A stretch of DNA of 64,000 nt from Amaurobius ferox (taxonomy: Eukaryota; Arthropoda; Arachnida; Araneae; Amaurobiidae): the NCBI GenBank assembly GCA_951213105.1, contig OX578136.1:156433178-156497177 (forward strand), given 5' to 3'. The notes below the pieces were generated by a model that had not been told where the DNA came from, searched no databases, and saw only the letters and a program-made list of their open reading frames with translations. Both the position numbers and the translations under genes were made by a program. Position 1 is the stretch's first letter, and every line of letters starts with the position of its first letter. Positions 10,958 to 49,907 of this stretch are shown here, piece after piece.

Positions 10958-11182
<225 letters not shown>

Positions 11183-26837: not shown

Positions 26838-26887
26838 AGTAGAAGAGAAAGGAGAGTTCAAGCTCAGCAGGCGCAGCGCCGCAGCAG

Positions 26888-27051
26888 TGACGTCACGGAG
26901 GATGACGTCATGATGACGTCACGTTATCTAATCAGATGACGTCATCGGCTTATCTTATCAGATGACGTCACTGATAAGCTTATCTTATCGGATGACGTCA
27001 TCGGCTTATCTTATCGGATGACTCATTCGATAAGATTATCGGCTGACGTCA
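26888..27051. promoter_or_regulatory. Terminal array of seven TGACGTCA (CRE/ATF) sites, one TGACTCA (AP-1) and GATAAG motifs
   Basis: Perfect TGACGTCA palindromes start at 26,888, 26,903, 26,914, 26,937, 26,963, 26,993 and 27,044. TGACTCA is at 27,019. GATAAG or its inverse CTTATC occurs about eight times between them, including a palindromic GATAAGCTTATC at 26,973. CREB/ATF and GATA factors are the known binders of such words. A role as enhancer, or as an initiation or packaging region at the end of a protein-primed element, is inferred. Confidence 0.6.
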
Positions 27052-27171
27052 TGTACTGACACAGACAGTGAGGTTGAAGAAGACCTTGGCGGCCATCTTG
27101 GAAATTTTGGTGGCGCCCTCTATGGACAGGTTGGAGAACTGTGTTGGCTAAAAGGAAAGAATTGGTTCTGG

Positions 27172-27240
27172 ACTGAGCTGGATTCGAACTGGGGACCCCT
27201 TGCACCGTAGGAGACTGCTTTAACCAGTATACACTTTGAG
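27172..27240 (-). other. tRNA-like segment (box A/box B resemblance)
   Basis: On the minus strand CTGGTTAAAGCAG followed by CCCAGTTCGAATCC resembles a Pol III box A and box B at tRNA-like spacing. The anticodon and T stems do not pair properly, so it is not a functional tRNA. It could be the head of an old SINE. The same segment is in the right arm at about 49,509-49,572. Confidence 0.3.
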
Positions 27241-27258
27241 ACTTGTAGGCAGATGGTG

Positions 27259-27845
27259 AATGAATGATATCTTTCCTGCAAAAGGAGTTGGGTACTTAGA
27301 ATATTTTCTGAACTTCTACGAGGCGATGGTGCGAATGAATTAAGATTTTAATTAATTTTTAATAAATGAATAAATATATTATGAAAAAAAAATGGAATAT
27401 AGTCATAATTTAATTTTAATAAGGGGATTATTTTTTTAAATGATTGGGTAATTATTGTTTTTATGGAATGTTTAGGAAAGTGCTTGAAGACATTTACGAA
27501 ATTTTAGATGGCGGTGATGGCGCCCTCTATTGACACTTGAATGAAATAATGAATGATGTCTTCCCTGCGAAAGGAGTTGGGTACTTAGAATATTTTCTGA
27601 ACTTCTACGAGGCGATGGTGCGAATGAATTAAGATTTTAATTCATTTTTAATAAATGAATAAATGTATTATGAAAAATAAAAATGGAATATAGTCATAAT
27701 TGAATTTTAATAGGAGGATTATTTTTTTTAAATGATTGGCTAATTATTGTTTTTATGAAATGTTTTGAAAAATGCTTGAAGACATTTACGAAAGTTTAGA
27801 TGGCGATGATGGCGCCCTCTATTGGCACTTGAATGAAATACATGC
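27259..27845. repeat. 289-bp tandem repeat, two copies (left arm)
   Basis: GGTACTTAGA at 27,291 recurs at 27,580, giving a period of 289 bp. Landmarks CGAGGCGATGGTGCGAATGA and GATGGCGCCCTCTATTG are in both units. The mirror-image array is at about 48,905-49,490 in the right arm. Confidence 0.8.
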
Positions 27846-29340
27846 GATGAATAATAATAGAATTAATTTCAGAATGCGGTTTTTGTGTTCTTTTAATTAG
27901 GTAGTCGAACGATGACTTAATAATTTTAGCTTCATGCTCATACATGTTTTAATGAATGAAGATAATTTTTTTTTTACGTTGGTCGTTCATCAGTGATTTT
28001 TTAAGGACGGGGTGTAAGTTTTTGAATTTTATTAATTTTAATGAAATGATTTTTGGGGTGTTTTTGAATGAAGGAATGGGGGATTTCTATAGCGAACTAG
28101 CATATCGCATGTTTGATGTTACCACAAGTTGAGAACAGGATTTGACCCTTTTAGAAGAGGTGTGCGCGTATGCCAGCCATGGTAATTAATTTTTTAATGA
28201 ATTAGTAGGGGAGTTTGTGTTAAAACTGACATGTTTTAAAGGATTGCGAGATTTTAATACTAGGTTATAATACTCGCTGAACACGTTTCGACAATTTTTT
28301 TTTAATTTTACTAGAAATGTTGTCACATTTATTTTTTTATTTTATTTTTTTTCAATGATATTCATAAAATTGTTAATTAATGCGAAACTTTAAATATTTT
28401 AATTCAGACTGAATGTCTATAAAAGTATGTTTTAATTTTATTTTTATTGGGTTGTAAAGTTTACTTTTGCGTCTGGATTCGAACCTGCTACTAAGAGTCA
28501 TATAAAATGTTATGTATTAGAAAATAGCAAGATCCATTTCTATGTAGAAATAGTACATGCATGCCATACATTAAAAAAGAAATGAGTGTATGCCATTTCT
28601 AGTTTAGAAAATAGCCTATAATGTATTCGAAAATCATACGATCCATTTCTACAAAGAAAGGATATATGTTCGATTTTCTACTTAAAAAAAAAAAAAAAAT
28701 GATACATGCATGTTATACATTAGAAGAAAAAATGTTAGTAAAAGTGGGAAATGTTAGCAGCAGAAGAAGAAAGTGGGAGCGTTTCCAACAGTACCTGGGA
28801 GGTGACGCAAGCTGTCGTTTCACTCTTTATGGGCAGTGTTCCCCACCAACGTGAAATAATTTTCTTAAATATGGATTTAAAAATAATTATGAATTTTAAG
28901 TTAAGTTACTTGTAATTGAATGCTAAGATAGAAGTTTATAAAAACATAAAATAAACTTTAATGCTTTTAAAACATTTAAAAAAAAAATATGAATTTAGAT
29001 ACTTGTAATATTTTTTTTCATTACAAGGTTATGAAAAAAATGTTACAAGATAGAAATGTAATGAATTTAAATGTAAAGTGACAAAATTAGATTATTTCAC
29101 ATTGGCAGGCCTATTTTCCCCCCCAAAAAAAATTATACAAAAGTACACATTCACTTGATTTTTCTTTATAGGTGAATTAGAAAAAAATATAATATTTAAA
29201 ATAAATTAATTTAAGATGAATGTATATAAGAATTAAACTGAAAAATTTAAAAAATATTTAAAGATAAAAAAAAAAGAACTAACGAATTTAAAGACAAAAA
29301 AAAACTAACGAATTTAAAAAAACAAAAAAACAAGTAAATG
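27846..29340. other. AT-rich non-coding spacer of the left arm
   Basis: No convincing gene. It contains a locally repeated GATCCATTTCTACNNAGAAA motif (28,530 and 28,640) and a 77-codon plus-strand frame at 28,621-28,854 that is the same in the right arm (48,123-47,890, minus). That conservation reflects recent arm duplication, not proven selection. Homopolymer runs are frequent in 29,260-29,340. Confidence 0.35.
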
Positions 29341-29345
29341 TGTAC

Positions 29346-30362
29346 TCACATAAGCCCATGCTTATAGGCGTTCATATCGAGGCCCGCAAAACACTTTGAA
29401 TCCAAGTATGAGGCCAAGCTGTGTTCACTTATATTGTTTTGAATGTTGCATAAGTTTACGTGAAACAGTGCACTGTCACCCACAGAGCGCAGCTTGTCCT
29501 CTATCATCGTGTTGAGACAAGCGTGTCGCCTTTGTGAGGGGTGATCGACGACGCACCCCTCGCAGTAAAACAGCTTTTCCCCAACACGTTGAATTTCACT
29601 GCGTACACATTCTAGTATGTGTTTGTGTAAAATATCTTCATATCCTATTGGCTTAGGCTCTGCGGGTCTTAATTGTTGCATTTTCAAAATCCTGCTAGGT
29701 AACACCTTCTCATATAGCACTTCCAAGATAGCATATGCAATGTCATCACACACTTCTTTTAAATTAACGATATGTTCCATGGAGAGGGTAATTGCCGATG
29801 GTTTCAGATGAAACGGACCCTCTCCATTTTTATACATTTGCTGTAAATGACATTCCCCGTCTGCATTCAGCACAATCAGTTGATTATTAGCTATAAAGCT
29901 AGCACTTGTATAAATGTTGTTAAATTCATATAGTTTGCTCGAAAATTCACGCCACGTTGCAGCGTTCATGATCACTCCATGTTGGGTGGCACGCCCCTCT
30001 TCATACTTTCGTATGTGAATACGAACGTTCTGTTTGAAAATGAAAATTTGCAGATGGACACTCAACCCCAATGAAAATGAATAGTGCGGTTCATAGGGTG
30101 TAGGGGCAGCAGGTATAACAGCCACAATAACTGGATCGTCATCAGTGGCGGTGGTGGGGCTGACTGCGTTGCTTAGATATGCCGGCTCATCCGAGTTGTT
30201 AGCACAAGTAGAATTGTCCAAGTTACTTGTATTGGGTATAAATCCAAAACCTGAAAGGATTGTAGACTGGTCAGTAACTTCTGCAGATACTGGCGATTCA
30301 GGCCTACCATAAACGATCGTCATCCAGTCGACCTCTGGTAAATCACCGTACGAATGAGACAT
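29346..30362 (-). CDS. PC4-domain protein with C-terminal Cys/His motif, Polinton accessory gene (left arm, full length)
   Basis: A 338-codon frame with ATG at 30,362. Residues 1-90 are acidic, low-complexity and likely disordered. Residues about 103-143 (HLQIFIFKQNVRIHIRKY...TQHGVIMNAATWREF) match the pattern of the PC4/p15 single-strand DNA-binding coactivator domain: strands with IHIRKY, then a GVxMxxxxW segment. A C-terminal cluster C267-x2-C270-x3-H274-PSQ-x2-H280-x-C282 suggests a metal-binding module. PC4-like proteins bind ssDNA and could act in replication or transcription of the element. That role is inferred. The LINE insertion lies directly upstream, separating the gene from the TATA region at 40,095. 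The stop codon overlaps a GTGAGT donor-like string, so a further exon cannot be excluded. Confidence 0.7.
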   Translation of the reverse strand: MSHSYGDLPEVDWMTIVYGRPESPVSAEVTDQSTILSGFGFIPNTSNLDNSTCANNSDEPAYLSNAVSPTTATDDDPVIVAVIPAAPTPYEPHYSFSLGLSVHLQIFIFKQNVRIHIRKYEEGRATQHGVIMNAATWREFSSKLYEFNNIYTSASFIANNQLIVLNADGECHLQQMYKNGEGPFHLKPSAITLSMEHIVNLKEVCDDIAYAILEVLYEKVLPSRILKMQQLRPAEPKPIGYEDILHKHILECVRSEIQRVGEKLFYCEGCVVDHPSQRRHACLNTMIEDKLRSVGDSALFHVNLCNIQNNISEHSLASYLDSKCFAGLDMNAYKHGLM

Positions 30363-30430
30363 TGTAATTTAAAAAGCAAAAAGCGAGAACTAAAATCTGA
30401 AGATAGAGAAAAGTATGTTAAGAATAATAC
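30363..30430 (-). promoter_or_regulatory. Residual leader of the PC4-domain gene and 3' target duplication of the LINE
   Basis: Read on the minus strand it contains TCTTAACATA (30,423-30,414), the 10-bp LINE target duplication seen in full in the right arm, then TATCTTCAGATTTTAG, a possible initiator context, and 45 bp to the ATG. Before the LINE insertion this leader presumably adjoined the TATATA box now at 40,095-40,100. Confidence 0.4.
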
Positions 30431-30643
30431 GTAGTGTCGTACAAGACAGAGCACCAGGCGCGAAGCGCCTTTAATCTCCAGTTTCAATATGTGGTTCTTA
30501 TCGTCAAACTGTGACATTAATTCAGTGACCCTAATTGGAGGTTCGAGGTTTTTATTTACTACTTTTTATTATTTATCCTAGTTCCTAGTGTGGCAGTTTG
30601 TTGCACATTTAGAGTTTAAGCAGTTTGGGGGGTTGATGCAGAT

Positions 30644-35013: not shown

Positions 35014-35019
35014 AAATCA

Positions 35020-35254
35020 GGGTCAAATAACTCGAAGTACGAAAAGCCCAACCACGTGGGAAAAACACACGTGGCAATCCAAGTTCGAACAGCACAAAAT
35101 GGCGATACACAGAAAAGTTGAAGATTACTTAGCCTGACGTGCTCTATCGTAACTAGATATAACACGCCCAAGCGTAAGTAAGAAAAGTCACCACAAGATA
35201 AAAACAGTAGCTTCGCAAAATCACAACCTCACACTTCGAAGTCTGAGCTCCGAT
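35020..35254 (-). promoter_or_regulatory. LINE 5' UTR (copy 1)
   Basis: About 235 bp upstream of ORF1. It includes a CACGTG-type inverted repeat (CCACGTG...CACGTGG at 35,053-35,075, imperfect) that is perfect in copy 2. LINEs of this clade normally use internal promoters. The start TCAGAC near 35,245 is initiator-like. Confidence 0.45.
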
Positions 35255-35508
35255 GTCGTAGTGTCGTACAAGACAGAGCACCAGGAGCGAAGCGCCTTTA
35301 ATCTCCAATTTCAATATGTGGTTCTTAACGTCAAACTGTGACATTAATTCAGTGACCCTAATTGGAGGTTCAAGGTTTTTATTTACTACTTTATTATTTG
35401 TCCTAGCTCCTAGTGTGGCAGTTTGTTGCACATTTAGAGTTTAAGCAGTTTGGGAGGTTGATGCAGATCTAAGGGTTACCTAGCGTTTTGGCAGTTTAGA
35501 GTTTAGAA

Positions 35509-35531
35509 TTTTTTTTTTTTTTTTTTTTTTT
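35509..35531 (-). repeat. Internal A tract of LINE copy 2
   Basis: A run of about 23 T on the plus strand, 20-30 bp after an AAATAAA signal in the LINE sense. It looks like a true poly(A) end, yet it is followed by the 230-bp tail S in both complete copies. Confidence 0.8.
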
Positions 35532-35587
35532 TATAAAATAATAGTCGCGAGTTTTATTTAAAATTCAGATGTTTGAGGTGGGATCTT

Positions 35588-38307
35588 TTAATTCCGATTA
35601 TCGATGTTTAGAACAGCGCGGGGTCTCTTACGAGATTTGGCCTTGCGATGATCATAGTCATGCAGATTGAATAACAGTTCGTTTGGAACGGATGGCAAAT
35701 TTCTGTAAAATTTAAGCGCTAGCTTTTTAATTTGGGCTCTAACAGTTTTTATTTTGAAGTCATTCCTAATTACCGAGTTTCTTAAGTACCTGGGAGCTTT
35801 CCTGATAATCCGTAGGATTTTGTTTTGTTTTGTCTCTAGGAGGTCTATTGTAGTTTTACAGGCATATCCCCATACGGGTGCTGCATACAGCATTCCCGGG
35901 CGGATGACCGATTTATAAATTAGGAGTTTATTTTGATAACTTAGATTTCCGTTTCCTATCATTGGGTATAAGGCTCCTGTGGCCATATACGCTTTTTTGA
36001 TTAAGTTCGTTACGTGCTGTTTCCAGGTTAGGTGGGAATCTATCGTTACACCTAGGTATTTAGTAGATTTTTCCGCTTTTAGGGCATGGTTGTTTATGTA
36101 CAGAGGCGGCGGAGGTTTACGTTTTCTAGAGAAATAAATCCAATGACATTTATTGGGGTTTAATTTTATTCGCCATTTTTCCAGCCAAGTTTGGAGCATG
36201 TCTAAGTGTTGTTGTAGCTGTCTGTGCATTACTGAGACATAAGGGTATTTTGCAAGTATCGCACTATCGTCTGCATAGAGTGCCAGCTCTGTGTTTGGAG
36301 TCCTGGGGATGTCATTCAGGTATATGTTAAAGAGTGTCGGGCCCAGGATAGAACCTTGCGGTACACTACTTTTAATGAGCTTGGGTGTTGATAAGTTACC
36401 TCCTACTCTGACTTGAAAGTGTCTGTTATTTAAGTATGAGATTAAAAGTTTGACAAGAGCGTCAGGGACTTTTAAAGTGATCAATTTGTATGCTAATCCA
36501 CAGTGCCACACTTTATCAAAGGCTTTTTGTATGTCCAGAAAAATCGCAGCTGTGGGTGTCTTACTATTAAGTCCAGAAGATATGTACTCTACCACTCTCA
36601 GCAATTGATGAGTGGTGGAGTGCTTTGGCCGAAATCCAAACTGCTCCGGAATGAGGATGTCATTCTCACTAAGGTGCGTGTTCAGTCTCTTAAGAATTAT
36701 TTTCTCAGTAATTTTACTAAGTGTCGGTAGCAAGCTGATTGGTCTGTAGTTGGCTGGAATTGTGGCATCCTCACCTGGCTTGGGGATTGTTATGATTATC
36801 GCTTCCTTCCATTCTTTGGGAAAGTAGTTTAGTTTTAATATTTTATTTATTAAGATAGTCAAGTAACATATTACGTTTAGGGGTAGGTTTTTAACCGCAA
36901 TATTTCTGATTTTGTCGTGCCCTGGGCTTTTGCGATTTTTGAGATTTTTGATAATTTCTAATATCTCCTGCGGGGTGGCTGGGTTAATCTCAGCCGTTAC
37001 CGGGGAATTCCTGAAGTTATTTAAAGTTTGGCTAACCATTCTTAGGGTATCCTGACACATTAGATCGTGGTTTGGTTGGAATTGTTTTTCATAATGGCTT
37101 GCCAGCGCCTCGGCTTTTTCCTCGTCTGAGTACGCGATTTTAGCGCCATCCATTAGTGGCGGAAGCTTAATTTGAGGTTTCCTGAGTCTTTTTGCGAATT
37201 GCCAGAGCGATACATCTTCTGGGCTAAGGGATTCGATTAATTCTTTATACTGTTGCTGCTTTTCTGCGACAATTTTCCCCCTGACTTTGCTCGTGAGTCT
37301 GTTAAGCTCCCTTTTAAGGGCGGGATCTCTGTTAGCCTGCCATGTCTTACGCATTCTATTCCTTTGCCTGACTAATTGTTTGACATGGTGGGAAAGTGTG
37401 GGTAATTTTGGAGACTCACGATGTGTTGTGGCAGAGGCAATTGCTCTCTTGATTTCTGTTGTGAGTGTGTGCGTGGCAGAGTCAATATCCGCCATGCTCA
37501 TAATGTTAGGTACTGCTAAATGCGGCTCGAAGAGTGCTCTTTTGAATACTTCCGAGTTGACCCTCTCTTGTCCCAGAGAGGCTGGAAGAGGTGTGTTCAG
37601 GTCAAATGTCACCAGTACCGGTAGATGATCCGAGTCGAATTCATCCAGGGTACTAATAGTGTGAGCGTAGTCTATGCGTTAGGACAAAGTGTTCGCGTTA
37701 GGACAAAGTCTATGAATGTGCCGCTGGCGCCTGAGAAGCAGGTTGGTGTCGACGGAACAATAATGTTTGTATTTGTGGTGTTCAGCAGTTTATGTATCTG
37801 TGTACCGCGTGCATTGGCTCTCCTACAACCCCACGCTCGGTGATGTGCGTTGAAGTCGCCTGCGAGTATCGTGTTGGGATATCGCGAGAAAAGCAGTTCC
37901 AGCTGCGCAGCTACGTCTACCCTACTCATATTTTTGACATATGTTGAGGTTAGGATAAACGGGCTAGTATTATGAATTTTAATTTTTATGCTAGTATTTT
38001 CTATACTTTGAAGATTTATGCTTTTTAGTTCCTCGTGGGGAATATTTCTTTTAATGTATATTGCTGTTCCTCCATGGGGCGTTCTAGCATTAGTATTTGA
38101 GCTAAGATTATGATAACCTGAGTAGTTGGCTATGTTTAGTTTTTTACTTTCTCTAACTCTAGTTTCCTGAATTAGTAAGGCGTCTACGTCATTTTCATTT
38201 ACATAGTTCCTAAGTTCATTTATTCTTGGAGATATGCCGTTCGCATTCCAAAATATTATTTTTAAGGATTCTTTTTGGGACCTAGCCATGACGGGTTTGA
38301 TTCTCAC
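35588..38307 (-). pseudogene. LINE ORF2, endonuclease-reverse transcriptase, one frameshift (copy 2)
   Basis: The ATG at 38,307 (MRIKPVMARSQKES) overlaps the ORF1 end. The first 211 codons give the endonuclease N-terminal part. At about 37,676-37,707 a partial tandem duplication of GCGTTAGGACAAAG adds a net 14 bp and shifts the frame inside the endonuclease. The rest (37,612-35,588, 674 codons) is intact: full RT with YADD at about residue 457 of this part and the C-terminal region through KRPRAVLNIDNRN. Apart from the insertion, it is close to a full-length ORF2 of about 900 residues. Confidence 0.8.
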
Positions 38308-39813
38308 TGTTACTTTTAAAGTCCGCGATTATTTTAAGGGCCTCAAAGACCATTACCATTGGATCGCTCTTTTTTTGTACCAACTCTGCGAACTGCATCA
38401 ACAGACGTTTTATGTCGTCTAGAATAAACATGCTGATAAACCCTCTGATGAGGTTGAGGATATCCTCCATCTTTTCAGCATCAGATTTATCAGCCTGTTC
38501 AGTCTCCGCTTCCATTTCCTCAGCCTCAACCGCGGTTTGCACATTTTTGTGAGTGTCCTTTTGGAACTCGATAGTTTTTTGTTTTTTTTCACCCGTTTTA
38601 GCTAACGGCTGGGTTTGCGCGAGCTCTTCTCCCTCCCTGACTCGTTTAGTTTCTTTCCATTCCTTAACTTTGCTATCCAGTCTATCCTTTGCCTCTCTTG
38701 CCTGTCTGGCTTTTTCTGCCTCCGATCTTCTTTTAATTGCAGCTGTAGTTGCTCTAACTTCCTCCAGAGTCAATTCTCTGGAGGTCGAAGGTTTGGGGGC
38801 CTGCTCTTGCACCGATCTGGTAGGTGCTGAAGTTTCGTACCTGTTTATCTGTGGCACTAAGTGCGAGGAGCCCTGAGGGGGTGCCTGGGGGTTTGGTCCG
38901 AGGGCCTTTTGCCTCCAAGGGGGTATCTGATTTTTTGGGGGTGGGGGGGCATACCCCGGTGCCTTTCCCTTGTTCCAGGGGTTCTTCGGGCATTGCCTGA
39001 AGTTCGCCGGGTGGTCTCCATTGCAGTTAGCACACGTCGCCTTCTCTGTCCTGGGCCTCTGGCAGTCTCGTGTGAAGTGTCCTTCACCACACTTCAGGCA
39101 CTTTGGCGGCATACTGCAGTTCTCTGATGAGTGGTTGAATTGCTGGCACCGGTAGCAAATTTTAAAGCCCCTAGCTCTGAAGGCCTCTACCTTCACAGCC
39201 AAGTACCCTAATCTTGTGAGTCTGTAGATCCTCTGCCAGTCATCGGTAGGCCTAAGGCTGACTAAAAAGATCGGCAGGGGTAATCTCGTTTTGGTGTTTC
39301 TCAATTGAGAAACCCGGACTACATCTAATCCATTGGATGTTAGAGTCAATTTTATCTCCTCAATGTCATAGCTAGTTGGTAGCCCCTTCAAGACTACCTT
39401 TTTCGGCCTTTCACTTTTGAGGTTTAAACTATGGAAGGGGATTTTCTCGCTAGACAAATGGCGCTGAACAACCCTATAGGAGTCAGCGTCATTGGGTATC
39501 AGTTCATGTCACGGTAAGACAGAAAAGAATACACAAAATTGAACGAACCTATAATCCGGGAGACTTGGTCCTGTTCCTGTTCGATGAGTCCATTCTTGAG
39601 CATATCCCTGATATGCAGAGTCAGCGTGTAGATAACCAGTCCTAAGAAGTTGACGACTTGCATCACATCAGTTGGCCACGTGAAGCACGATCCATCCTGC
39701 GGCAGAGAGTCACTGTACAAGTTCATGGCATCCTTGAGAGGCCGAGCACATTCTCCATCAAGCTCACTAGCAGTAATCCTCGTAAGCTCCAGATGATCCT
39801 TGTCCAAATCCAT
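38282..39813 (-). pseudogene. LINE ORF1, internally deleted (copy 2)
   Basis: The start MDLDKDHLEL (ATG at 39,813) is open for 104 codons to 39,499. Compared with copy 1, about 550 bp (the equivalent of 34,153-34,702) is missing at 39,497-39,510, which removes the linker before the RRM-like region and breaks the frame. The downstream frame 39,457-38,282 (391 codons) is intact: RRM-like segment KKVVLKGLPTSYD, three CCHC-type knuckles, a coiled charged stretch, and the C-terminus NSENQTRHG overlapping ORF2. Confidence 0.75.
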
Positions 39814-39814
39814 A

Positions 39815-40076
39815 TCTTCAGTTGAGAGTAATCCAAAAAGTCACTACCACGTGTAAGGCACACGTGGTGAATCCAAAATTGAGATAGCTCGAAAGCACAA
39901 AATGGCGGAAATCCGCACGCAAAAAAGTTGAGAATTACTTAGCCCGACGTGCTTTATCGTAACTTGATATAACACGCCCAAGCGTAAGCAAGAAAGTCAC
40001 CACAAGGTAAAAGCAGCAGCTTCGCAAAATCACAACCTCACACTTCGAAGTCTGAGCTCCGAATCTCTGAGCTCCG
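39815..40076 (-). promoter_or_regulatory. LINE 5' UTR with CACGTG hairpin (copy 2)
   Basis: It contains a perfect 9-bp inverted repeat, ACCACGTGT-AAGGC-ACACGTGGT, at 39,846-39,868, with one E-box core CACGTG in each arm. The duplicated TTCGGAGCTCAGA lies at the extreme 5' end (about 40,049-40,076). Confidence 0.45.
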
Positions 40077-40094
40077 AACTGTGTGCACCCACTC

Positions 40095-40126: not shown

Positions 40127-40128
40127 GA

Positions 40129-40440
40129 TTGGATAACAAATCATTCATCTGTCACGTCATTCGTGCGTATCACACTCTGTTCCCTGGATTTAACCAAGAC
40201 AAGGGAATTCACCTGACCCGAGACGAATTTGCAAAGGGCTATACCTTGTACGCTTTTGATTTGTCGCCCGACATGTGCGATGGGCCGCATATGAATTTGC
40301 AGCAGCAAGGTAATTTACGTGTAGAAGTGAAATTTTCTAAAGCTCTTCGAGAAACCATTTCCATCTTGGTGTATGCGGAATTTGAAAACGTGATTGAAAT
40401 TAACAAGTCTCGTCATATTCTGTGTGATTTTGCCAATTAA
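40129..40440 (+). pseudogene. C-terminal fragment of a capsid-type (F54H12.2-like) Polinton protein
   Basis: About 103 codons, open from a stop at 40,126 with no ATG near the front. The first in-frame ATG is at codon 49. The motif region GYTLYAFDLSPD, followed by NLRVEVKF, ISILVYAEF and VIEINKSRHILCDF, is the pattern I associate with the C-terminus of F54H12.2-like proteins found in Polinton-type elements, likely the last jelly-roll strands of the major capsid protein. The homology call is from memory of the family and needs a profile search. The inverted-repeat boundary (40,161) falls at codon 11, so the missing N-terminal part, probably several hundred residues, was removed by arm expansion. 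The next gene starts 2 nt after the stop. Confidence 0.6.
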
Positions 40441-40442
40441 AA

Positions 40443-40919
40443 ATGGATACCAAGCAACTGCACAAGGCATTGTCCAAGAACATTTTTACGAGCGATTCCT
40501 TTTTAGGTGTTTTTGCAAGCGACAATCTACCTGAAAAGATTGAGCGATATCCCACCTGTTTCGTGGCTAACGCAGACTCTTCGACAGAACCTGGAAGTCA
40601 TTGGTTAGCCTTTTACTTGCCTTTTCGAGATTGTTTGGAATTTTTCGATTCCTACGGACATTCACCCGACACATTCCAAGGAGCTATATCGGACTATGTA
40701 TCATCTTTTCGGCATATGGACTATAATTGTATGCCCCTGCAAAGCAATGTTACGGCCGTCTGTGGTCACTATTGTATTTATTATTTATATTCTAGATGTC
40801 GCGGAACTTCTTTGAAAGATTTTATGTTATCTTTTGTACCCCACGAATTATCAAATGATATAAAAATTTATAATTTTGTAACCAAGCATTTTAAGATTGC
40901 TACACCTTTTTACCAATAA
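40443..40919 (+). CDS. Adenain-like (C5-type) cysteine protease
   Basis: 158 residues with ATG at 40,443, 2 nt after the capsid fragment stop. The catalytic set of adenovirus-type maturation proteases is present in order: His53 in GSHWLAF, Asp69 in FFDSYG, Gln100 in MPLQSN and Cys107 in VCGHYC. In such viruses and in Polintons this enzyme cleaves capsid precursors during maturation. It is shorter than adenain (about 200 residues) but complete relative to Polinton homologues as far as I can judge. The stop is followed within 2 nt by the ATPase start, and an AATAAA overlaps this junction, indicating a compact cluster that probably shares transcripts. No lesions are visible. Confidence 0.88.
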   Translation: MDTKQLHKALSKNIFTSDSFLGVFASDNLPEKIERYPTCFVANADSSTEPGSHWLAFYLPFRDCLEFFDSYGHSPDTFQGAISDYVSSFRHMDYNCMPLQSNVTAVCGHYCIYYLYSRCRGTSLKDFMLSFVPHELSNDIKIYNFVTKHFKIATPFYQ

Positions 40920-40921
40920 AT

Positions 40922-41590
40922 ATGGATGTGCACAAACCTGTGTCCTCATTTGTCATGGAGTTTCCAACTCTGCAACACCCTTTTACGATGGTCATTTCAG
41001 GTCCTACGGGCTGCGGAAAAAGCTTCTTTGTTCGCGATTTATTAAAACACAAGCGGGAGATGTTTTCGCCGCCCCTCGATAAAATTGTGTGGTTTTATGG
41101 AATCCACCAACCTCTTTACGATGAAATTCCCGATGTTACTTTTGTGGAAGGCCTACCCGGAAATTATCGAGAATATTTGGAATCCAACACGCTTTTTATT
41201 ATAGACGACTTGATGTCCGAGTGTGGCAACGATAAACGCTTAACGCACTTGTTTACCAAGGGAAGTCACCATTTGAATTTGAGTGTCGTGTTTATCACGC
41301 AAAACTTTTTTCACAAAGGAAAAGAAATTCTTGAAATTACTTTAAACGCCCACTACCTCCTTCTTTGTAAAAATCGAAGAGATTTGAGTCAAATCACGCA
41401 TTTGGGAAAACAGTTATATCCCAGGCAGACACGATATTTTCAAGAAGTGTACGAAGACGCTACTAAAAAACCGTATTCGTATCTGTTTATAGATTTGCGC
41501 AGTGAAACAGCCGAAGAAATGCGTTTGCGCACCAATATTTTACCGGGCCAGACGCAATATGTCTACCAAGTGAGACATGTTTTTGCGTGA
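40922..41590 (+). CDS. A32/FtsK-like genome-packaging ATPase
   Basis: 222 residues. Walker A GPTGCGKS at 27-34, Walker B LFIIDDLM at 91-98, and a downstream VVFITQNFF motif at 122-130, in the position of the sensor segment of HerA/FtsK-type packaging ATPases. These motors pump DNA into capsids in Polintons, adintoviruses and related double-jelly-roll viruses. The preceding stop is 2 nt upstream. The frame is uninterrupted with no missing motif. Together with the protease it is the strongest evidence that the 23-kb structure is a Polinton-class element and not a simple inverted duplication of host DNA. Confidence 0.88.
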   Translation: MDVHKPVSSFVMEFPTLQHPFTMVISGPTGCGKSFFVRDLLKHKREMFSPPLDKIVWFYGIHQPLYDEIPDVTFVEGLPGNYREYLESNTLFIIDDLMSECGNDKRLTHLFTKGSHHLNLSVVFITQNFFHKGKEILEITLNAHYLLLCKNRRDLSQITHLGKQLYPRQTRYFQEVYEDATKKPYSYLFIDLRSETAEEMRLRTNILPGQTQYVYQVRHVFA

Positions 41591-41611
41591 AAGCATAACA
41601 TAAAAATTTTG

Positions 41612-41619
41612 TATAAAAA
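41612..41619 (+). promoter_or_regulatory. TATA-like box upstream of the basic-protein gene
   Basis: TATAAAAA, 18 bp upstream of ATG 41,637 and 36 bp upstream of the next in-frame ATG at 41,655. With normal TATA spacing transcription would begin near 41,642, so the functional start may be the second ATG. Confidence 0.4.
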
Positions 41620-41636
41620 CGTAAAGTGTTGGTGTC

Positions 41637-41984
41637 ATGTCATCACTTGAAAAGATGACGCTGACCCAAGAACAACTAAGACAATTGCAGTTGCTGCAGA
41701 TTTGCCCCTCGAAATTACGAAAGAATCTACTGAAAAAAATTCCATCTTCATGTATAAAGGCTCTCTGCGAGTGCACTCTTAACACATTAAAAGGAAATAT
41801 TCCTCTCACGAAGCACCAAAAAGTAAAGCTCCGTAAACACAAGACTACCTTGCGAGAATTGGCGTACAAGCGTAAACCTCTGTACCAAAAACGAAAACTA
41901 CTCATCCAAAAAGGTGGATTTTTAAACTTGCTAATTCCTGCGGCACTGAGTGTGATTACAACACTTTTTAATGGAGCACGCTAA
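41637..41984 (+). CDS. Small basic structural protein with hydrophobic C-terminus (PX/core-like)
   Basis: 115 residues, or 109 if translation starts at Met7 (41,655). Residues 25-92 are strongly basic (KLRKNLLKK, KVKLRKHK, KRKPLYQKRK). A QKGGF hinge at 91-95 precedes a hydrophobic stretch, LNLLIPAALSVITTLF. Small proteins of this build are common between the ATPase and late genes of Polintons and adintoviruses and have been compared with adenoviral core or minor capsid polypeptides. The exact role is unknown to me. The end overlaps the next gene's start by 14 nt. Confidence 0.65.
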   Translation: MSSLEKMTLTQEQLRQLQLLQICPSKLRKNLLKKIPSSCIKALCECTLNTLKGNIPLTKHQKVKLRKHKTTLRELAYKRKPLYQKRKLLIQKGGFLNLLIPAALSVITTLFNGAR

Positions 41985-42159
41985 AAAATATGCACTGATT
42001 CCTGAAGAGTCTCTCTCCAAGCATGTACCCACCGAAAAGCACATGACAGCTTTCGACAAGGAAATGGCTCGCATTTTAAATAGTTCTCTCGGCGAAGACG
42101 ATAAAGTTAAGTTGTATTACGAACTTTTGCAAATGAAACTAAAGATGAATTTTTTTTAA
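41971..42159 (+). CDS. Late structural-type protein, N-terminal part of an apparently split gene
   Basis: 62 codons (MEHAKKYALIPEESL...) ending in KLKMNFF at a run of eight T. The next frame, 42,149-42,613, is open across this run (+1 relative), so the two are probably one gene of about 210 codons broken by a one-base indel in the T tract. It has an amphipathic, charged composition. The homologous late protein of Polinton-like elements, as I remember it, carries both parts in one chain. Function unknown. Confidence 0.55.
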   Translation: MEHAKKYALIPEESLSKHVPTEKHMTAFDKEMARILNSSLGEDDKVKLYYELLQMKLKMNFF

Positions 42160-42193
42160 TACACCTATTCAAGCATCGATTCACAAGGAAGAT

Positions 42194-42613
42194 ATGGACG
42201 AAGAAAGCATTTTAATTAAAAAGGAAAAACCTGAAAAGAATTTGAATATCAAAGAAAGTGTGAACAACTACGATGGGATTCTATTAAACAGTGTGCCTGT
42301 AAAATTGAAAAGATATGCCGGTGAAATGATTTCACTCATAAAAAGGCATCCCGACATCTTGGATTGGAACGAAAGCGGACAGATTCTACATCATGGAAAC
42401 ATTGTCCCCAAATCCAACATTGTGGACTTGTTTAATCTGATATTCACCAACAGGAAAAGTGAAGTTGTCGCCAAAGAACCTTTTCTAGCAGCTTTAGATG
42501 AAATGAACATTCCACGACACTATGTAAAAAATAAACATGTATATGCGCATCCCTACAAAAGTACTCCAGCAAAAAGACGAAAAACTACTGTGAATTGGTT
42601 GAATTTTAAATAA
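42194..42613 (+). CDS. Late structural-type protein, C-terminal part
   Basis: 139 residues from ATG 42,194. The frame is open upstream to 42,149. The central block (KRYAGEMISLIKRHPDILDWNESGQILHHGNIVPKSNIVDL, about residues 39-79) is the recognisable conserved part: helix, then W-N-E-x-G-x-x-x-x-x-G, then a PxSNIVDL segment. A basic tail, PAKRRKTTVNW, follows. It belongs to the structural/late cluster by position. Specific function unknown. An AATAAA overlaps the stop region (42,609-42,615) as a plausible polyadenylation signal. Confidence 0.65.
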   Translation: MDEESILIKKEKPEKNLNIKESVNNYDGILLNSVPVKLKRYAGEMISLIKRHPDILDWNESGQILHHGNIVPKSNIVDLFNLIFTNRKSEVVAKEPFLAALDEMNIPRHYVKNKHVYAHPYKSTPAKRRKTTVNWLNFK

Positions 42614-42871
42614 AAAAAGAAATGAAATAACCTGTGTCTTTATTTCTAACACACACATTTAAACAAGAAATATATACTTACCACCTTCCAAACCTACTCC
42701 AACGAATGTCCAACTCCAAATGAATCACTCGCCTTGTGTTATCAGTAAAATCTTATCTTGCTACCATGGTTACGCGCATTGTTCATGTTGCACTATCAGG
42801 AAAGCGTTATCGGTATCCCATGACAGCGCAAATACTTGCGCATGCGCACCAGCATCCCCTGCAAAGTAGCC
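42614..42871. other. Non-coding end of the unique core
   Basis: 258 bp after the late gene. Nothing coding on either strand. A CCAAT and a TGACGTG half-CRE at 42,870-42,880 open the right arm and read toward the PC4 gene. Confidence 0.5.
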
Positions 42872-42931
42872 AATGACGTGCAGATGAATGATTTGTTATC
42901 CAATCACTGATAAGGTGTGTAATGCTGAGGG

Positions 42932-42937
42932 TATATA
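42932..42937 (+). promoter_or_regulatory. TATA box, right-arm copy, ancestral promoter of the PC4-domain gene
   Basis: TATATA is preceded by CCAAT/TGACGTG (42,870-42,880) and TGATAAGG (about 42,908). It lies 17 bp before the LINE target duplication. Without the LINE it would sit about 100 bp upstream of the PC4 ATG. Confidence 0.4.
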
Positions 42938-42964
42938 GAGTGGGTGCCCACAGTTCTTAACATA

Positions 42965-43713
42965 GCTAACTGCAATGGAGACCACCCGGCGAACTTCAGG
43001 CAAGGCCCGAAGAACCCCTGGAACAAGGGAAAGGCACCGGGGTATGCCCCCCCACCCCCAAAAAATCAGATACCCCCTTGGAGGCAAAAGGCCCTCGGAC
43101 CAAACCCCCAGGCACCCCCTCAGGGCTCCTCGCACTTAGTGCCACAGATAAACAGGCACGAAACTTCAGCACCTACCAGATCGGTGCAAGATCAGGCCCC
43201 CAAACCTTCGACCTCCAGAGAATTGACTCTGGAGGAAGTTAGAGCAACTACAGCTGCAATTGAAAGAAGATCGGAGGCAGAAAAAGCCAGACAGGTAAAA
43301 GAGGCAAAGGATAGACTGGATAGCAAAGTTAAGGAATGGAAAGAAACTAAACGAGTCAGGGAGGGAGAAGAGCTCGCGCAAACCCAGCCGTTAGCTAAAA
43401 TGGTGAAAAAAAACAAAAAACTATCGAGTTCCAAAAGGACACTCACAAAAAAGTGCAAACCGCGGTTGAGGCTGAGGAAATGGAAGCGGAGACTGAACAG
43501 GCTGATAAATCTGATGCTGAAAAGATGGAGGATATCCTCAACCTCATCAGAGGGTTTATCAGCATGTTTAATCTAGACGACATAAAACGTCTGTTGATGC
43601 AGTTCGCAGAGTTGGTACAAAAAAAGAGCGATCCAATGGTAATGGTCTTTGAGGCCCTTAAAATAATCGCGGACTTTAAAAGTAACAGTGAGAATCAAAC
43701 CCGTCATGGCTAG
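42965..43713 (+). pseudogene. LINE ORF1, 5'-truncated and frameshifted (copy 3)
   Basis: It begins within CNGDHPANFRQ, so the RRM-like region and the first two knuckles are absent. The frame runs to about 43,400, where copy 2 has ACGGGTG and this copy has ATGGTG (one base lost). The C-terminal part continues in another frame from 43,453 to the NSENQTRHG end at 43,713, overlapping ORF2. Confidence 0.75.
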
Positions 43714-46393
43714 GTCCCAAAAGGAGTCAATAAAAATTATATTTTGGAATGCGAACGGCATATCTCCAAGAATAAATGAACTTAGGAACTATGTAAATGA
43801 AAATGACGTAGACGCCTTACTAATTCAGGAAACTAGAGTTAGAGAAAGTAAAAAACTAAACATAGCCAACTACCCAGGTTATCATAATCTTAGCTCAAAT
43901 ACTAATGCTAGAACGCCCCATGGAGGAACAGCAATATACATTAAAAGAAATATTCCCCACGAGGAACTAAAAAGCATAAATCTTCAAAGTATAGAAAATA
44001 CTAGCATGAAAATTAAAATTCATAATACTAGCCCGTTTATCCTAACCTCAACATATGTCAAAAATATGAGTAGAGTAGACGTAGCTGCGCAGCTGTAACT
44101 GCTTTTCTCGCGATATCCCAACACGATACTCGCAGGCGACTTCAACGCACATCACCGAGCGTGGGGTTGTAGGAGAGCCAATGCACGCGGTACACAGATA
44201 CATAGACTGCTGAACACCACAAATACTAACATTATTGTTCCGTCGACACCAACCTGCTTCTCAGGCGCCAGCGGCACATTCATAGACTTTGTCCTAACGC
44301 GAAACATAGACTACGCTCACACTATTAGTACCCTGGATGAATTCGACTCGGATCATCTACCGGTACTGGTGACATTTGACCTGAACACACCTCTTCCAGC
44401 CTCTCTGGGACAAGAGAGGGTCAACTGGGAAGTATTCAAAAGAGCACTCTTCGAGCCGCATTTAGCAGTACCTAACATTATGAGCACGGCGGATATTGAC
44501 TCTGCCACGCACACACTCAAAACAGAAATCAAGAGAGCAATTGCCTCTGCCACAACACATCGTGAGTCTCCAAAATTACCCACACTTTCCCACCATGTCA
44601 AACAATTAGTCAGGCAAAGGAATAGAATGCGTAAGACATGGCAGGCTAACAGAGATCCCGCCCTTAAAAGGGAGCTTAACAGACTCACGAGCAAAGTCAG
44701 GGGGAAAATTGTCGCAGAAAAGCAGCAACAGTATAAAGAATTAATCGAATCCCTTAGCCCAGAAGATGTATCGCTCTGGCAATTCGCAAAAAGACTCAGG
44801 AAACCTCAAATTAAGCTTCCGCCACTAATGGATGGCGCTAAAATCGCGTACTCAGACGAGGAAAAAGCCGAGGCGCTGGCAAGCCATTATGAAAAACAAT
44901 TCCAACCAAACCACGATCTAATGTGTCAGGATACCCTAAGAATGGTTAGCCAAACTTTAAATAACTTCAGGAATTCCCCGGTAACGGCTGAGATTAACCC
45001 AGCCACCCCGCAGGAGATATTAGAAATTATCAAAAATCTCAAAAATCGCAAAAGCCCAGGGCACGACAAAATCAGAAATATTGCGGTTAAAAACCTACCC
45101 CTAAACGTAATATGTTACTTGACTATCTTAATAAATAAAATATTAAAACTAAACTACTTTCCCAAAGAATGGAAGGAAGCGATAATCATAACAATCCCCA
45201 AGCCAGGTGAGGATGCCACAATTCCAGCCAACTACAGACCAATCAGCTTGCTACCGACACTTAGTAAAATTACTGAGAAAATAATTCTTAAGAGACTGAA
45301 CACGCACCTTAGTGAGAATGACATCCTCATTCCGGAGCAGTTTGGATTTCGGCCAAAGCACTCCACCACTCATCAATTGCTGAGAGTGGTAGAGTACATA
45401 TCTTCTGGACTTAATAGTAAGACACCCACAGCTGCGATTTTTCTGGACATACAAAAAGCCTTTGATAAAGTGTGGCACTGTGGATTAGCATACAAATTGA
45501 TCACTTTAAAAGTCCCTGACGCTCTTGTCAAACTTTTAATCTCATACTTAAATAACAGACACTTTCAAGTCAGAGTAGGAGGTAACTTATCAACACCCAA
45601 GCTCATTAAAAGTAGTGTACCGCAAGGTTCTATCCTGGGCCCGACACTCTTTAACATATACCTGAATGACATCCCCAGGACTCCAAACACAGAGCTGGCA
45701 CTCTATGCAGACGATAGTGCGATACTTGCAAAATACCCTTATGTCTCAGTAATGCACAGACAGCTACAACAACACTTAGACATGCTCCAAACTTGGCTGG
45801 AAAAATGGCGAATAAAATTAAACCCCAATAAATGTCATTGGATTTATTTCTCTAGAAAACGTAAACCTCCGCCGCCTCTGTACATAAACAACCATGCCCT
45901 AAAAGCGGAAAAATCTACTAAATACCTAGGTGTAACGATAGATTCCCACCTAACCTGGAAACAGCACGTAACGAACTTAATCAAAAAAGCGTATATGGCC
46001 ACAGGAGCCTTATACCCAATGATAGGAAACGGAAATCTAAGTTATCAAAATAAACTCCTAATTTATAAATCGGTCATCCGCCCGGGAATGCTGTATGCAG
46101 CACCCGTATGGGGATATGCCTGTAAAACTACAATAGACCTCCTAGAGACAAAACAAAACAAAATCCTACGGATTATCAGGAAAGCTCCCAGGTACTTAAG
46201 AAACTCGGTAATTAGGAATGACTTCAAAATAAAAACTGTTAGAGCCCAAATTAAAAAGCTAGCGCTTAAATTTTACAGAAATTTGCCATCCGTTCCAAAC
46301 GAACTGTTATTCAATCTGCATGACTATGATCATCGCAAGGCCAAATCTCGTAAGAGACCCCGCGCTGTTCTAAACATCGATAATCGGAATTAA
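43688..46393 (+). pseudogene. LINE ORF2, endonuclease-reverse transcriptase with one nonsense codon (copy 3)
   Basis: A 901-codon frame that is intact except for TAA at 44,096-44,098 (codon 137), where the sister copies have a Glu codon after AAQL. Before it are FWNANGI and IQET. After it are GDFNAHH, SDHLP, then the RT from codon about 450 with NYRPISLLP, FLDIQKAFD, VPQGSILGP and LYADDSAIL. The C-terminus KRPRAVLNIDNRN is complete. The protein would be nearly full-length but for this single change, so the copy is young. Confidence 0.85.
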
Positions 46394-46423
46394 AAGATCC
46401 CACCTCAAACATCTGAATTTTAA

Positions 46424-46726
46424 ATAAAACTCGCGACTATTATTTTATAAAAAAAAAAAAAAAAAAAAATATTCTAAACTCTAAACTGCCAAAACGCTAG
46501 GTAACCCTTAGATCTGCATCAACCTCCCAAACTGCTTAAACTCTAAATGTGCAACAAACTGCCACACTAGGAGCTAGGACAAATAATAAAGTAGTAAATA
46601 AAAACCTTGAACCTCCAATTAGGGTCACTGAATTAATGTCACAGTTTGACGATAAGAACCACATATTGAAATTGGAGATTAAAGGCGCTTCGCGCCTGGT
46701 GCTCTGTCTTGTACGACACTACGACG
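46424..46726 (+). repeat. LINE 3' region: AATAAA, A tract and tail S with terminal hairpin
   Basis: AATAAA at about 46,424 precedes an A run at 46,449-46,469. About 255 bp of tail S follows, with a GGCGC-TTC-GCGCC hairpin at 46,684-46,696 and an end at CACTACGACG. All three LINE copies carry S. Confidence 0.7.
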
Positions 46727-46802
46727 TCTTAACATACTTTTCTCTATCTTCAGATTTTTGCTGTCCAGATTTTAGTTCTCGCTTTTTGCTTTTTAAATTA
46801 CA

Positions 46803-47615
46803 ATGTCTCATTCGTACGGTGATTTCCCAGAGGTCGACTGGATGACGATCGTTTATGGTAGGCCTGAATCGCCAGTATCTGCAGAAGTTACTGACCAGTC
46901 TACAATCCTTTCAGGTTTTGGATTTATACCCAATACAAGCAACTTGGACAATTCTACTTGTGCTAACAACTCGGATGAGCCGGCATATCTAAGCAACGCA
47001 GTCAGCCCCACCACCGCCACTGATGACGATCCAGTTATTGTGGCTGTTATACCTGCTGCCCCTACACCCTATGAACCGCACTATTCATTTTCATTGGGGT
47101 TGAGTGTCCATCTGCAAATTTTCATTTTCAAACAGAACGTTCGTATTCACATACGAAAGTATGAAGAGGGGCGTGCCACCCAACATGGAGTGATCATGAA
47201 CGCTGCAACGTGGCGTGAATTTTCGAGCAAACTATATGAATTTAACAACATTTATACAAGTGCTAGCTTTATAGCTAATAATCAACTGATTGTGCTGAAT
47301 GCAGACGAGGAATGTCATTTACAGCAAATGTATAAAAATGGAGAGGGTCCGTTTCATCTGAAACCATCGGCAATTACCCTCTCCATGGAACATATCGTTA
47401 ATTTAAAAGAAGTGTGTGATGACATCGCATATGCTATCTTGGAAGTGCTATATGAGAAGGTGTTACCTAGCAGGATTTTGGAAATGCAACAATTAAGACC
47501 CGCAGAGCCTAAGCCAATAGGATATGAAGATATTTTACACAAACACATACTAGAATGTGTACGCAGTGAAATTCAACGTGTTGGGGAAAAGCTGTTTTAC
47601 TGCGGACTGGACTAA
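46803..47615 (+). pseudogene. PC4-domain gene, C-terminally truncated (right arm)
   Basis: 270 codons, nearly identical to the left-arm gene through EKLFYC. It then reads GLD and stops. The C-terminal 70 residues, including most of the Cys/His cluster, are lost because 447 bp of the left-arm sequence (29,114-29,560) is absent here and replaced by 26 bp of filler. The PC4-like domain (about residues 103-143) is intact. The leader also has a 15-bp insertion (TTTGCTGTCCAGATT) relative to the left arm. Confidence 0.7.
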
Positions 47616-47639
47616 TTGTTTTACTGGAAATAGGCCTGC

Positions 47640-48900
47640 CAATGTGAAATAATCTAATTTTGTCACTTTACATTTAAATTCATTACATTTCTATCTTGTA
47701 ACATTTTTTTCATAACCTTGTAATGAAAAAAAATATTACAAGTATCTAAATTCATATTTTTTCTTTAAATGTTTTAAAAGCATTAAAGTTTATTTTATTT
47801 TTTAATAAACTTCTATCTTAGCATTCAATTACAAGTAACTTAACTTAAAATTCATAATTATTTTTAAATCCATATTTAAGAAAATTATTTCACGTTGGTG
47901 GGGAACACTGCCCATAAAGAGTGAAACGACAGCTTGCGTCACCTCCCAGGTACTGTTGGAAACGCTCCCACTTTCTTCTTCTGCTGCTAACATTTCCCAC
48001 TTTTACTAACATTTTTTCTTCTAATGTATAACATGCATGTATCATTTTTTTTTTTTTTTTAAGTAGAAAATCGAACATATATCCTTTCTTTGTAGAAATG
48101 GATCGTATGATTTTCGAATACATTATAGGCTATTTTCTAAACTAGAAATGGCATACACTCATTTCTTTTTTAATGTATGGCATGCATGTACTATTTCTAC
48201 ATAGAAATGGATCTTGCTATTTTCTAATACATAACATTTTATATGTCTCTTAGTAGCAGGTTCGAATCCAGACGCAAAAGTAAACTTTACAACCCAATAA
48301 AAATAAAATTAAAACATACTTTTATAGACATTCAGTCTGAATTAAAATATTTAAAGTTTCGCATTAATTAACAATTTTATGAATATCATTGAAAAAAAAT
48401 AAAATAAAAAAATAAATCTGACAATATTTCTAGTAAAATTAGAAAAAAATTGTCGAAACGTGTTCAGCGAGTATTATAACCTAGTATTAAAATCTCGCAA
48501 TCTTTTAAAACATGTCAGTTTTAACACAAACTCCCCTACTAATTCATTAAAAAATTAATTACCATGGCTGGCATACGCGCACACCTCTTCTAAAAGGGTC
48601 AAATCCTGTTCTCAACTTGTGGTAACATCAAACATGCGATATGCTAGTTCGCTATAGAAATCCCCCATTCCTTCATTCAAAAACACCCCAAAAACCATTT
48701 CATTAAAATGAATAAAATTCAATAACACATACACCCCGTCCTTAAAAAATCACTGATGAACGACCAACGTAAAAAAAAAATTATCTTCATTCATTAAAAC
48801 ATGTATGAGCATGAAGCTAAAATTATTAAGTCATCGTTCGACTACCTAATTAAAAGAACACAAAAACCGCATTCTGAAATTAAATCTATTAAAATTCGTC
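47640..48900. other. AT-rich non-coding spacer of the right arm
   Basis: Inverse counterpart of 27,850-29,110. It contains GGTTCGAATCC at about 48,269, a perfect Pol III box B match without a paired box A, and the 77-codon minus frame at 47,890-48,123. Confidence 0.35.
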
Positions 48901-48904
48901 GCAT

Positions 48905-49490
48905 GAATTTCATTCAAGTGTCAATAGATGGCGCCATCATCGGTGTCTAAACTTTCGTAAATGTCTTCAAGCATTTTCCAAAACATTTCATAAAAACAAT
49001 AATTAGCCAATCATTAAAAAAAGTAATCCTCTTATTAAAATTCAATTATGACTATATTCCATTTTTATTTTTCATAATACATTTATTCATTTATTAAAAA
49101 TGAATTAAAATCTTAATTCATTCGCACCATCGCCTCGTAGAAATTCAGAAAATATTCTAAGTACCCAACTCCTTTCGCAGGGAAGACATCATTCATTATT
49201 TCATTCAAGTGTCAATAGAGGGCGCCATCACCGCCATCTAAAATTTCGTAAATGTCTTCAAGCACTTTCCTAAACATTCCATAAAAACAATAATTACCCA
49301 ATCATTTAAAAAAATAATCCCCTTATTAAAATTAAATTATGACTATATTCCATTTTTTTTTCATAATATATTTATTCATTTATTAAAAATTAATTAAAAT
49401 CTTAATTCATTCGCACCATCGCCTCGTAGAAGTTCAGAAAATATTCTAAGTACCCAACTCCTTTCGCAGGAAGGATATCATTCATTCACC
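48905..49490. repeat. 289-bp tandem repeat, two copies (right arm)
   Basis: Inverse of 27,259-27,845. The outer unit retains GGCGCCATCACCGCCATC and the inner unit GGCGCCATCATCGG. Confidence 0.8.
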
Positions 49491-49508
49491 ATTTGCCTAC
49501 AAGTCTCA

Positions 49509-49572
49509 AAGTGTATACTGGTTAAAGCACTCTCCTACGGTGCAAGGGGTCCCCAGTTCGAATCCAGCTCAG
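49509..49572 (+). other. tRNA-like segment (right arm)
   Basis: TACTGGTTAAAGCA and CAGTTCGAATCC at box A/box B spacing, with poor stem pairing. Inverse counterpart of 27,172-27,240. Confidence 0.3.
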
Positions 49573-49693
49573 TCCAGAACCAATTCTTTCCTTTTAGCCA
49601 ACACAGTTCTCCAACCTGTCCATAGAGGGCGCCACCAAAATTTCCAAGATGGCCGCCAAGGTCTTCTTCAATCTCACTGTCTGTGTCAGTACA

Positions 49694-49857
49694 TGACGTC
49701 AGCCGATAATCTTATCGAATGAGTCATCCGATAAGATAAGCCGATGACGTCATCCGATAAGATAAGCTTATCAGTGACGTCATCTGATAAGATAAGCCGA
49801 TGACGTCATCTGATTAGATAACGTGACGTCATCATGACGTCATCCTCCGTGACGTCA
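49694..49857. promoter_or_regulatory. Terminal CRE/GATA array (right arm)
   Basis: Inverse copy of 26,888-27,051 with the same seven TGACGTCA sites, one TGAGTCA and the GATAAG/CTTATC words. No site has been lost in either arm. Confidence 0.6.
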
Positions 49858-49907
49858 CTGCTGCGGCGCTGCGCCTGCTGAGCTTGAACTCTCCTTTCTC
49901 TTCTACT

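Follow-up and report, generated by a model that had tools for sequence, protein, structure and literature searches.

How does a Polinton come to carry the same end twice? The question is raised by an element at positions 26838-49907 of a 64,000-nucleotide stretch of the genome of the spider Amaurobius ferox (hereafter the window; C5:156433178-156497177). A preliminary description of this sequence had read the element as almost all inverted repeat, with one terminal region copied onto the other end over the genes for replication and integration. We searched the genome (3.56 Gb, 276 contigs) for relatives of the element and compared their ends, joints and insertions with its own. It is rather likely that the window element is a snap-back, symmetric and defective copy, resembling a defective interfering (DI) genome, of a Polinton lineage without DNA polymerase B (PolB), and that it was mobilised in trans and later hit by retrotransposons.

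Two like ends in the window element and one-sided ends in its relatives

Inverted similarity runs from 26838 and 49907 inward to 40161 and 42872 (arms 26838-40161 and 42872-49907), and a similarity of such length, as aligned, cannot be chance. The termini read AGTAGAAGAG...CTCTTCTACT. The arms are therefore as extensive as first described, but most of their length is retrotransposon and not, as had been supposed, one copied terminal region. Specifically, two tandem non-LTR (long terminal repeat) retrotransposons, A and B, occupy ~9.65 kb (~72%) of the 13.3-kb left arm, and a third, C, occupies ~3.76 kb (53%) of the 7.0-kb right arm. The Polinton-derived part is 26838-30423 plus 40078-40161 on the left and 46727-49907 plus 42872-42964 on the right. 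The true arm thus measures ~3.2-3.7 kb and comprises a terminal inverted repeat (TIR), a PC4-like gene and a promoter-like TATATA segment. The outer parts of the arms share 98.6% identity (45 differences over 3160 aligned columns); the inner segment of ~84 bp shows one substitution and one 1-bp gap. Only the core, 40162-42871, is unique, and it holds the late genes expected from the first description: a fragment of the major capsid protein (MCP) gene, a protease, an ATPase and two small open reading frames (ORFs).

Ten related copies in the same genome were read to the left and right of the ATPase gene (20 stretches), which supplied relatives with an integrase end and a PC4 end. In the nearest of these, the gene order is TIR, rve integrase, 246-aa ORF, 144-aa ORF, MCP, protease, ATPase, 115-aa ORF, ~216-aa ORF, promoter-like segment, PC4-like gene, TIR. 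The PC4-gene region is confined to one side, and the opposite side holds the integrase, the 246-aa and 144-aa ORFs and a full MCP gene. The window element has the PC4 end on both sides and lacks the integrase end through MCP residue 342. Because the relatives carry the PC4 end on one side and the integrase on the other, this comparison argues that the integrase end is overwritten by the PC4 end in the window copy. Indeed, when a 331-bp TIR segment was used for a tree, both TIRs of the window element formed one group (support 0.95) and the PC4-end TIR of the C22 copy stood next to them (0.98), while the integrase-end TIR of that copy fell elsewhere. The idea that one end had been copied onto the other was thus upheld. 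The joint between the copied end and the MCP gene reads CACGTCATT followed by CGTGCG, with CATT common to both parents. As it had a single genome match at ≤3 mismatches, this joint is, as far as the assembly reveals, private to the window copy.

The two 6-bp target-site duplications (TSDs) of the window element match at five of six bases. A paralogous empty site in L020 has a single CATAGG and reads GGTCCCATAGGGTTCAATG; a second paralogue, L015, has CATTTG at the target position. Long inverted repeats are hard to assemble, and collapsed or mirrored reads could in principle produce such a structure. However, the flanks on the two sides are not alike and come with a TSD and an empty paralogue, the arms are told apart by 45 substitutions, by indels and by the retrotransposons they contain, and the symmetric form recurs at other loci, so that the probability of an assembly artefact is next to negligible.

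We evaluated the gene content of the window and of the relatives with respect to integrase and PolB. In the window, tblastn with the integrases of two relatives found no integrase, and a genome-wide profile search with PF03175 (76 of 4221 candidates scored) had no PolB row, in agreement with the preliminary description. The window element therefore has the TIRs, 6-bp TSD, MCP, protease and ATPase of a Polinton, and neither RVE integrase nor PolB. Among the ten relatives, seven were listed with loci in the integrase search (117 of 11301 candidates scored), L023 and L025 have broken or split frames, and L015/L016 has no integrase frame in that list or in the frame lists. No PolB-sized open frame was found in the ten relatives, where a broken PolB was sought by profile only through the genome-wide PF03175 search. 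The sole frame of ≥500 aa in the 20 stretches, of 908 aa in L011, lies within a retrotransposon insertion. Elsewhere in the genome, PolB gave at least 85 matches at at least 76 loci; the locus nearest to a listed ATPase of the window family was, by eye and among those listed, 13 kb off. The window family is probably a Polinton lineage without PolB. Accordingly, the loss of integration genes by overwriting stands, whereas PolB was probably never among the overwritten genes, given the lack of a PolB-sized frame in the ten relatives.

Among the normal copies, lengths were 11.9 kb for L017/L018 and 11.3 kb for L025/L026, whose ends were read, and, from TIR matches, 13.2 kb for L027/L028 and ~14.5 kb for L019/L020. 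The family ends are AGTAGAAGAG / AGTAGTAAAG. Normal TIR matches spanned ~0.9-1.9 kb in copies that allowed the two ends to be compared, and were longer in L019/L020; the earlier statement that Polintons have short terminal repeats needs qualifying for this family. The TIR pairs of the normal copies L017/L018 and L011/L012 differ by ~7-12% though most frames are open, so that the two TIRs of a copy may in some cases differ already at integration. The best-ranked organism-named matches to the MCP of one relative were from spiders, and no viral contigs carrying this MCP were found. A second element core, ~76% identical and inverted, stands beside the 95% subfamily copy in L023/L024. On C19, 13.76-13.92 Mb holds a same-orientation array with PC4 and integrase rows every ~14-16 kb, and 11.735-11.758 Mb holds same-orientation clusters with PC4-gene rows ~1.2 kb apart.

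Table 1. Predicted features of the window element and its target site, in window coordinates
Feature	Position	Strand	Remarks
Left TSD, CATACG	26832..26837		one base off CATAGG
Left TIR, PC4-end type	26838..28485	+	~290-bp tandem duplication at 27259-27844
Remainder of copied PC4 end, left side	28486..30423	+	one-sided in relatives
PC4-like gene, left copy	29346..30362	-	338 aa, open frame; no direct Pfam match
Non-LTR retrotransposon A	30424..~35254	-	ORF1 PRE_C2HC, ORF2 endonuclease and reverse transcriptase; ~500-bp internal deletion
Non-LTR retrotransposon B	~35255..40077	-	abuts 5' end of A
Copied end, inner part: promoter-like TATATA segment	40078..40161	+	turnaround joint with MCP at 40158-40161, CATT microhomology
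MCP gene, 3' fragment	40159..40440	+	aa 343-435 of 435 (last 93 residues)
Adenain-like protease	40443..40919	+	PF00770 E 0.0092, below the curated threshold; relatives have a near-identical frame
Packaging-type ATPase	40922..41590	+	PF04665 E 5.2e-7; PF02456 E 4.1e-5
115-aa ORF	41637..41984	+	counterparts in relatives
139-aa ORF	42194..42613	+	matches later part of relatives' ~216-aa ORF
Original PC4 end, inner promoter-like part and 5' copy of C's 10-bp TSD	42872..42964	+	TSD copy at 42955-42964
Non-LTR retrotransposon C	42965..46726	+	5'-truncated; 10-bp TSD
Original PC4 end: C's 3' TSD copy, PC4 gene with ~445-bp deletion, TIR	46727..49907	-	
PC4-like gene, right copy	46803..47615	+	270-aa frame shortened by ~445-bp deletion
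Right TSD, CATAGG	49908..49913		

Outside the element, the window contains dense short tandem and inverted repeats at 10131-11181 and a pair of diverged inverted repeats at 1576-2375 / 58906-59738.

Symmetric copies elsewhere and their turnarounds

We queried the genome with the PC4 protein; of 3285 candidates, 119 were scored, and 48 rows reached ≥75% identity. Among the matches listed were seven outward-facing PC4 pairs including that of the window. The six others were read, and each carries the same PC4 end in inverted duplicate, its two arms differing by 0.05-0.43% over a segment of 1.45-1.89 kb. One internal joint between core and TIR occurs in all six, in both arms of L050, L051 and L054/L055 and in one arm of L049, L052 and L053. 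Genome-wide, this joint had 16 matches at 0 mismatches, at ~11 loci, against 0 for the control. Exact 6-bp TSDs (ACTGGT, TATATT and TGTGGA) flank 3/3 of the symmetric elements with both ends in hand; this count covers the elements whose two ends are readable, with L050, L051 and L052 outside it. Based on the joint shared by several loci and the exact TSDs, the symmetric forms appear to have moved as such, although a TSD would by itself be evidence of integration only. No integrase frame was seen in the six elements. Since elements that moved show no such frame, their integrase would have been supplied in trans, and the earlier suggestion that a copy of this kind needs help to move is reasonable, integrase-less copies carrying exact TSDs.

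The arms paired by element in 7/7 cases including the window (node support 0.75-1.0). In the seven-element alignment the window pair was 1.3% different, which on our reading comes partly from misalignment at the 445-bp deletion. This tree bears on recombination between elements, by which a palindromic element or some other copy would have supplied the left arm of the window element. Donors carrying this end do exist. However, the closest partner of the left arm is its own right arm, followed by L053 or the C22 copy and not by the other palindromes, and the palindrome joint is absent from the window, which is outside the 16 matched places; such an exchange is improbable.

The opposite end can be doubled as well. 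At C5:42645870-42654206, of which 701 + 251 bases were read, the integrase end stands on both sides (inward pair 42645870/42653169) with an ATPase between, and no PC4 row was among the matches listed in the search with the PC4 protein or in that of the larger subfamily. By its layout this element is the mirror image of the window event. No symmetric pair was found by eye in the larger subfamily (124 rows; 100 of 3568 candidates scored), nor a further one among the integrase rows listed. Symmetric copies had been anticipated elsewhere in the genome, and those found are six further PC4-end loci, all with the joint shared at ~11 loci, and one integrase-end locus. Separately, three successive PC4 genes occupy C4:137615909-137623037 together with two palindrome joints that point the same way, which looks like the insertion of one palindrome into or beside another.

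The points at which the copies turn back are at least five in number, with turns from either end. In L051 and L054/L055, the TIR runs to GGGAACA and then turns back as TCAAAAATGCG, where the unrearranged TIR continues GGATTTGACC; here AACA pairs with TGTT around a 23-nt loop. L049 and L050 have a common turn with a 24-nt loop. The turn of L053 leads from the TIR into the PC4 gene around a loop of ~1.5 kb, and the loop of the window element is 2.7 kb. The turn at C5:42.65 joins the MCP gene, near residue 124, to the ~216-aa gene, where there is an 18-nt local repeat. Four-nucleotide priming signatures were present in two turnarounds, those of the window (AATG/CATT) and of the L051 type (TGTT/AACA).

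Retrotransposon insertions and the PC4-like gene

Retrotransposons A, B and C are copies of one non-LTR family, which we take to be Jockey-like. Domain matches were to an APE endonuclease and RVT_1 in A and to RVT_1 in C, and C has the TSD and 5' truncation of a target-primed insertion. The insertions of the two arms differ in their 3' tails, in their 5' ends (full-length B/A versus truncated C) and in the 10-bp TSD, which only C has. Further, C is 98.9% identical to B and 94% identical to A. Because tails, 5' ends and TSD differ and C is nearer to B than to A, the retrotransposons very probably came later than the end duplication and inflated the arms. The reverse order, in which they were present beforehand and were copied along with the arm, would account for A and C standing at the same nucleotide of the two arms. 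We rejected it as very improbable on the tails, the truncation and the TSD, together with the closeness of C to B.

The insertion point recurs. A (30424), C (42965) and an insertion in the C22 copy (L011 3496) stand at the same nucleotide within 1 nt, beside the TATA-like segment of the PC4 gene, and B inserted subsequently at the upstream edge of A. The exact filled-site pattern had at least three matches genome-wide, with no fourth filled site found. We also considered whether the retrotransposon is exclusive to the Polinton end. The family has 1631 3' ends genome-wide at ≤2 mismatches, and 0/20 sampled 3' ends (exact matches from the first 100 listed, on contigs C1-C3) lay inside this TIR; exclusivity was rejected, and on these counts the Polinton-end site is a local hot spot, no exclusive target. 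Three of the 20 sampled copies (L034, L038 and L045) have another repeated target in common, with different tails.

The identity of the TIR-adjacent protein was approached through profile matches. In the 84% subfamily, L026 1889-2899 encodes an AlkB-type 2OG-Fe(II) oxygenase fused to a PC4 domain (PF02229, E 1.1e-8), and the protein beside the L023 copy matched PF02229 at E 5.6e-10. Matches of the main subfamily, at E 3e-4 to 4e-4, were below the cut-off, the window protein had no Pfam match, and the protein of the L010 relative had no PC4 match even at E 5. In a two-sequence comparison, the window protein aligned with the AlkB-PC4 fusion over 111 residues at E 3e-21. The protein is accordingly classed as PC4-like by way of its more distant relatives. 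No outside homologues were found at E 0.001 (993 candidates). Both arms of L049-L052 retain an open frame, as do L055 and the left arm of L053; in the L054 arm a retrotransposon lies inside the gene. Seven non-independent pairings of palindromic copies gave dN/dS values of 0.09-0.30, and nine further pairs gave 0.26-0.67, with few changes in each pair. That symmetric elements keep this gene, together with the low dN/dS, hints at a role in their own propagation.

Origin of the symmetric forms and comparison with known systems

The snap-back reading of the window element would require extrachromosomal replication by strand displacement, in which a strand started from the PC4 (right) end halts inside the MCP gene. 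Its 3' AATG would anneal to CATT in its own earlier part and be extended back to the right terminus, yielding a snap-back molecule with a 2.7-kb loop in which both ends are now the PC4 end. The molecule would then have integrated, as its TSD and the paralogous empty site attest, presumably by integrase in trans. Related molecules turning elsewhere would give palindromes or near-palindromes, and one such lineage would have spread to the ~11 loci that share its joint, some with TSDs. Afterwards, members of one retrotransposon family would have inserted, A and C at a common point near the start of the PC4 gene in either arm and B next to A.

Several observations weigh against this reading. No extrachromosomal or packaged form has been observed, and the polymerase is assumed, no PolB having been seen in the lineage. 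The pairing of arms by element could also be explained by chromosomal inverted-repeat conversion. Homology is ~1 nt in two turnarounds (L049/L050 and C5:42.65), the L053 turnaround has an extra base and the centre of L052 is deleted. Finally, the TIR is the more diverged part of the arms, with 27/1647 differences against 9/1490 in the copied inner part (Fisher p 0.007); leaving out the tandem repeat gives 15/1062 against 9/1490 (p 0.06). A single copying event predicts equal divergence.

The lower divergence of the inner part, like the private joint, would suit conversion after integration, whereby the element's own right end served as the template for repairing a break close to the left TIR, through inverted-repeat gene conversion or break-induced replication, and the inner end was joined to the MCP gene by 4-nt microhomology. 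Such conversion can hold for the window copy alone, and the assembly contains no second locus with its TIR/MCP joint. Yet it leaves unexplained both the short-loop turnarounds and the symmetric copies that have a shared joint and their own TSDs at several loci, and we consider it unlikely. To the snap-back reading we add a broader proposal, which is tentative and somewhat short of probable: PolB-less Polintons would replicate extrachromosomally via snap-back single-stranded DNA intermediates like adeno-associated virus (AAV), and the palindromes would be a spreading satellite lineage with the PC4-like gene under selection and integrase (and polymerase) in trans.

Foldback-type transposons are likewise mostly inverted repeat; their arms are arrays of short repeats, whereas the arms here are one end of a known element. 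As Polintons/Mavericks are described in PMC4028283, the present family shares with them TIRs, a 6-bp TSD and genes for capsid, protease and ATPase, with an rve integrase in the relatives. It differs in its size of ~11-15 kb by TIR matches, as opposed to 15-20 kb, in the PC4-like gene that stands at one end and in that the copies read showed no PolB-sized frame; the window copy differs further in having the same end twice. Tlr elements of Tetrahymena and Polinton-like viruses are also Polinton-related without the usual PolB, but carry other replication enzymes such as helicase fusions, none of which was recognised here (PMC11071308 and PMC4028283). The snapback genomes of AAV, as PMC8235507 presents them, are self-complementary, derive from the left or right moiety and are symmetric, or asymmetric with a loop. 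Their geometry is the same as that of the window element and the symmetric elements, in which one genome end stands as inverted copies around a loop and reaches the terminus; AAV, however, is a single-stranded parvovirus, and these are integrated elements with TIRs and TSDs.

A literature search returned no paper pairing PC4 with a Polinton; among the matches listed, palindromic Polintons appeared in no title or abstract opening and the phrase 'lacking PolB' was absent. To our knowledge, Polinton replication has never been watched directly. If the snap-back reading is true, the fixed turnarounds, which involve both ends and differ in their breakpoints, would document strand-displacement replication outside the chromosome and provide a signature searchable in other genomes. 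Symmetric elements that move while lacking their own integrase and capsid genes would be Polinton satellites, like the DI genomes of viruses.

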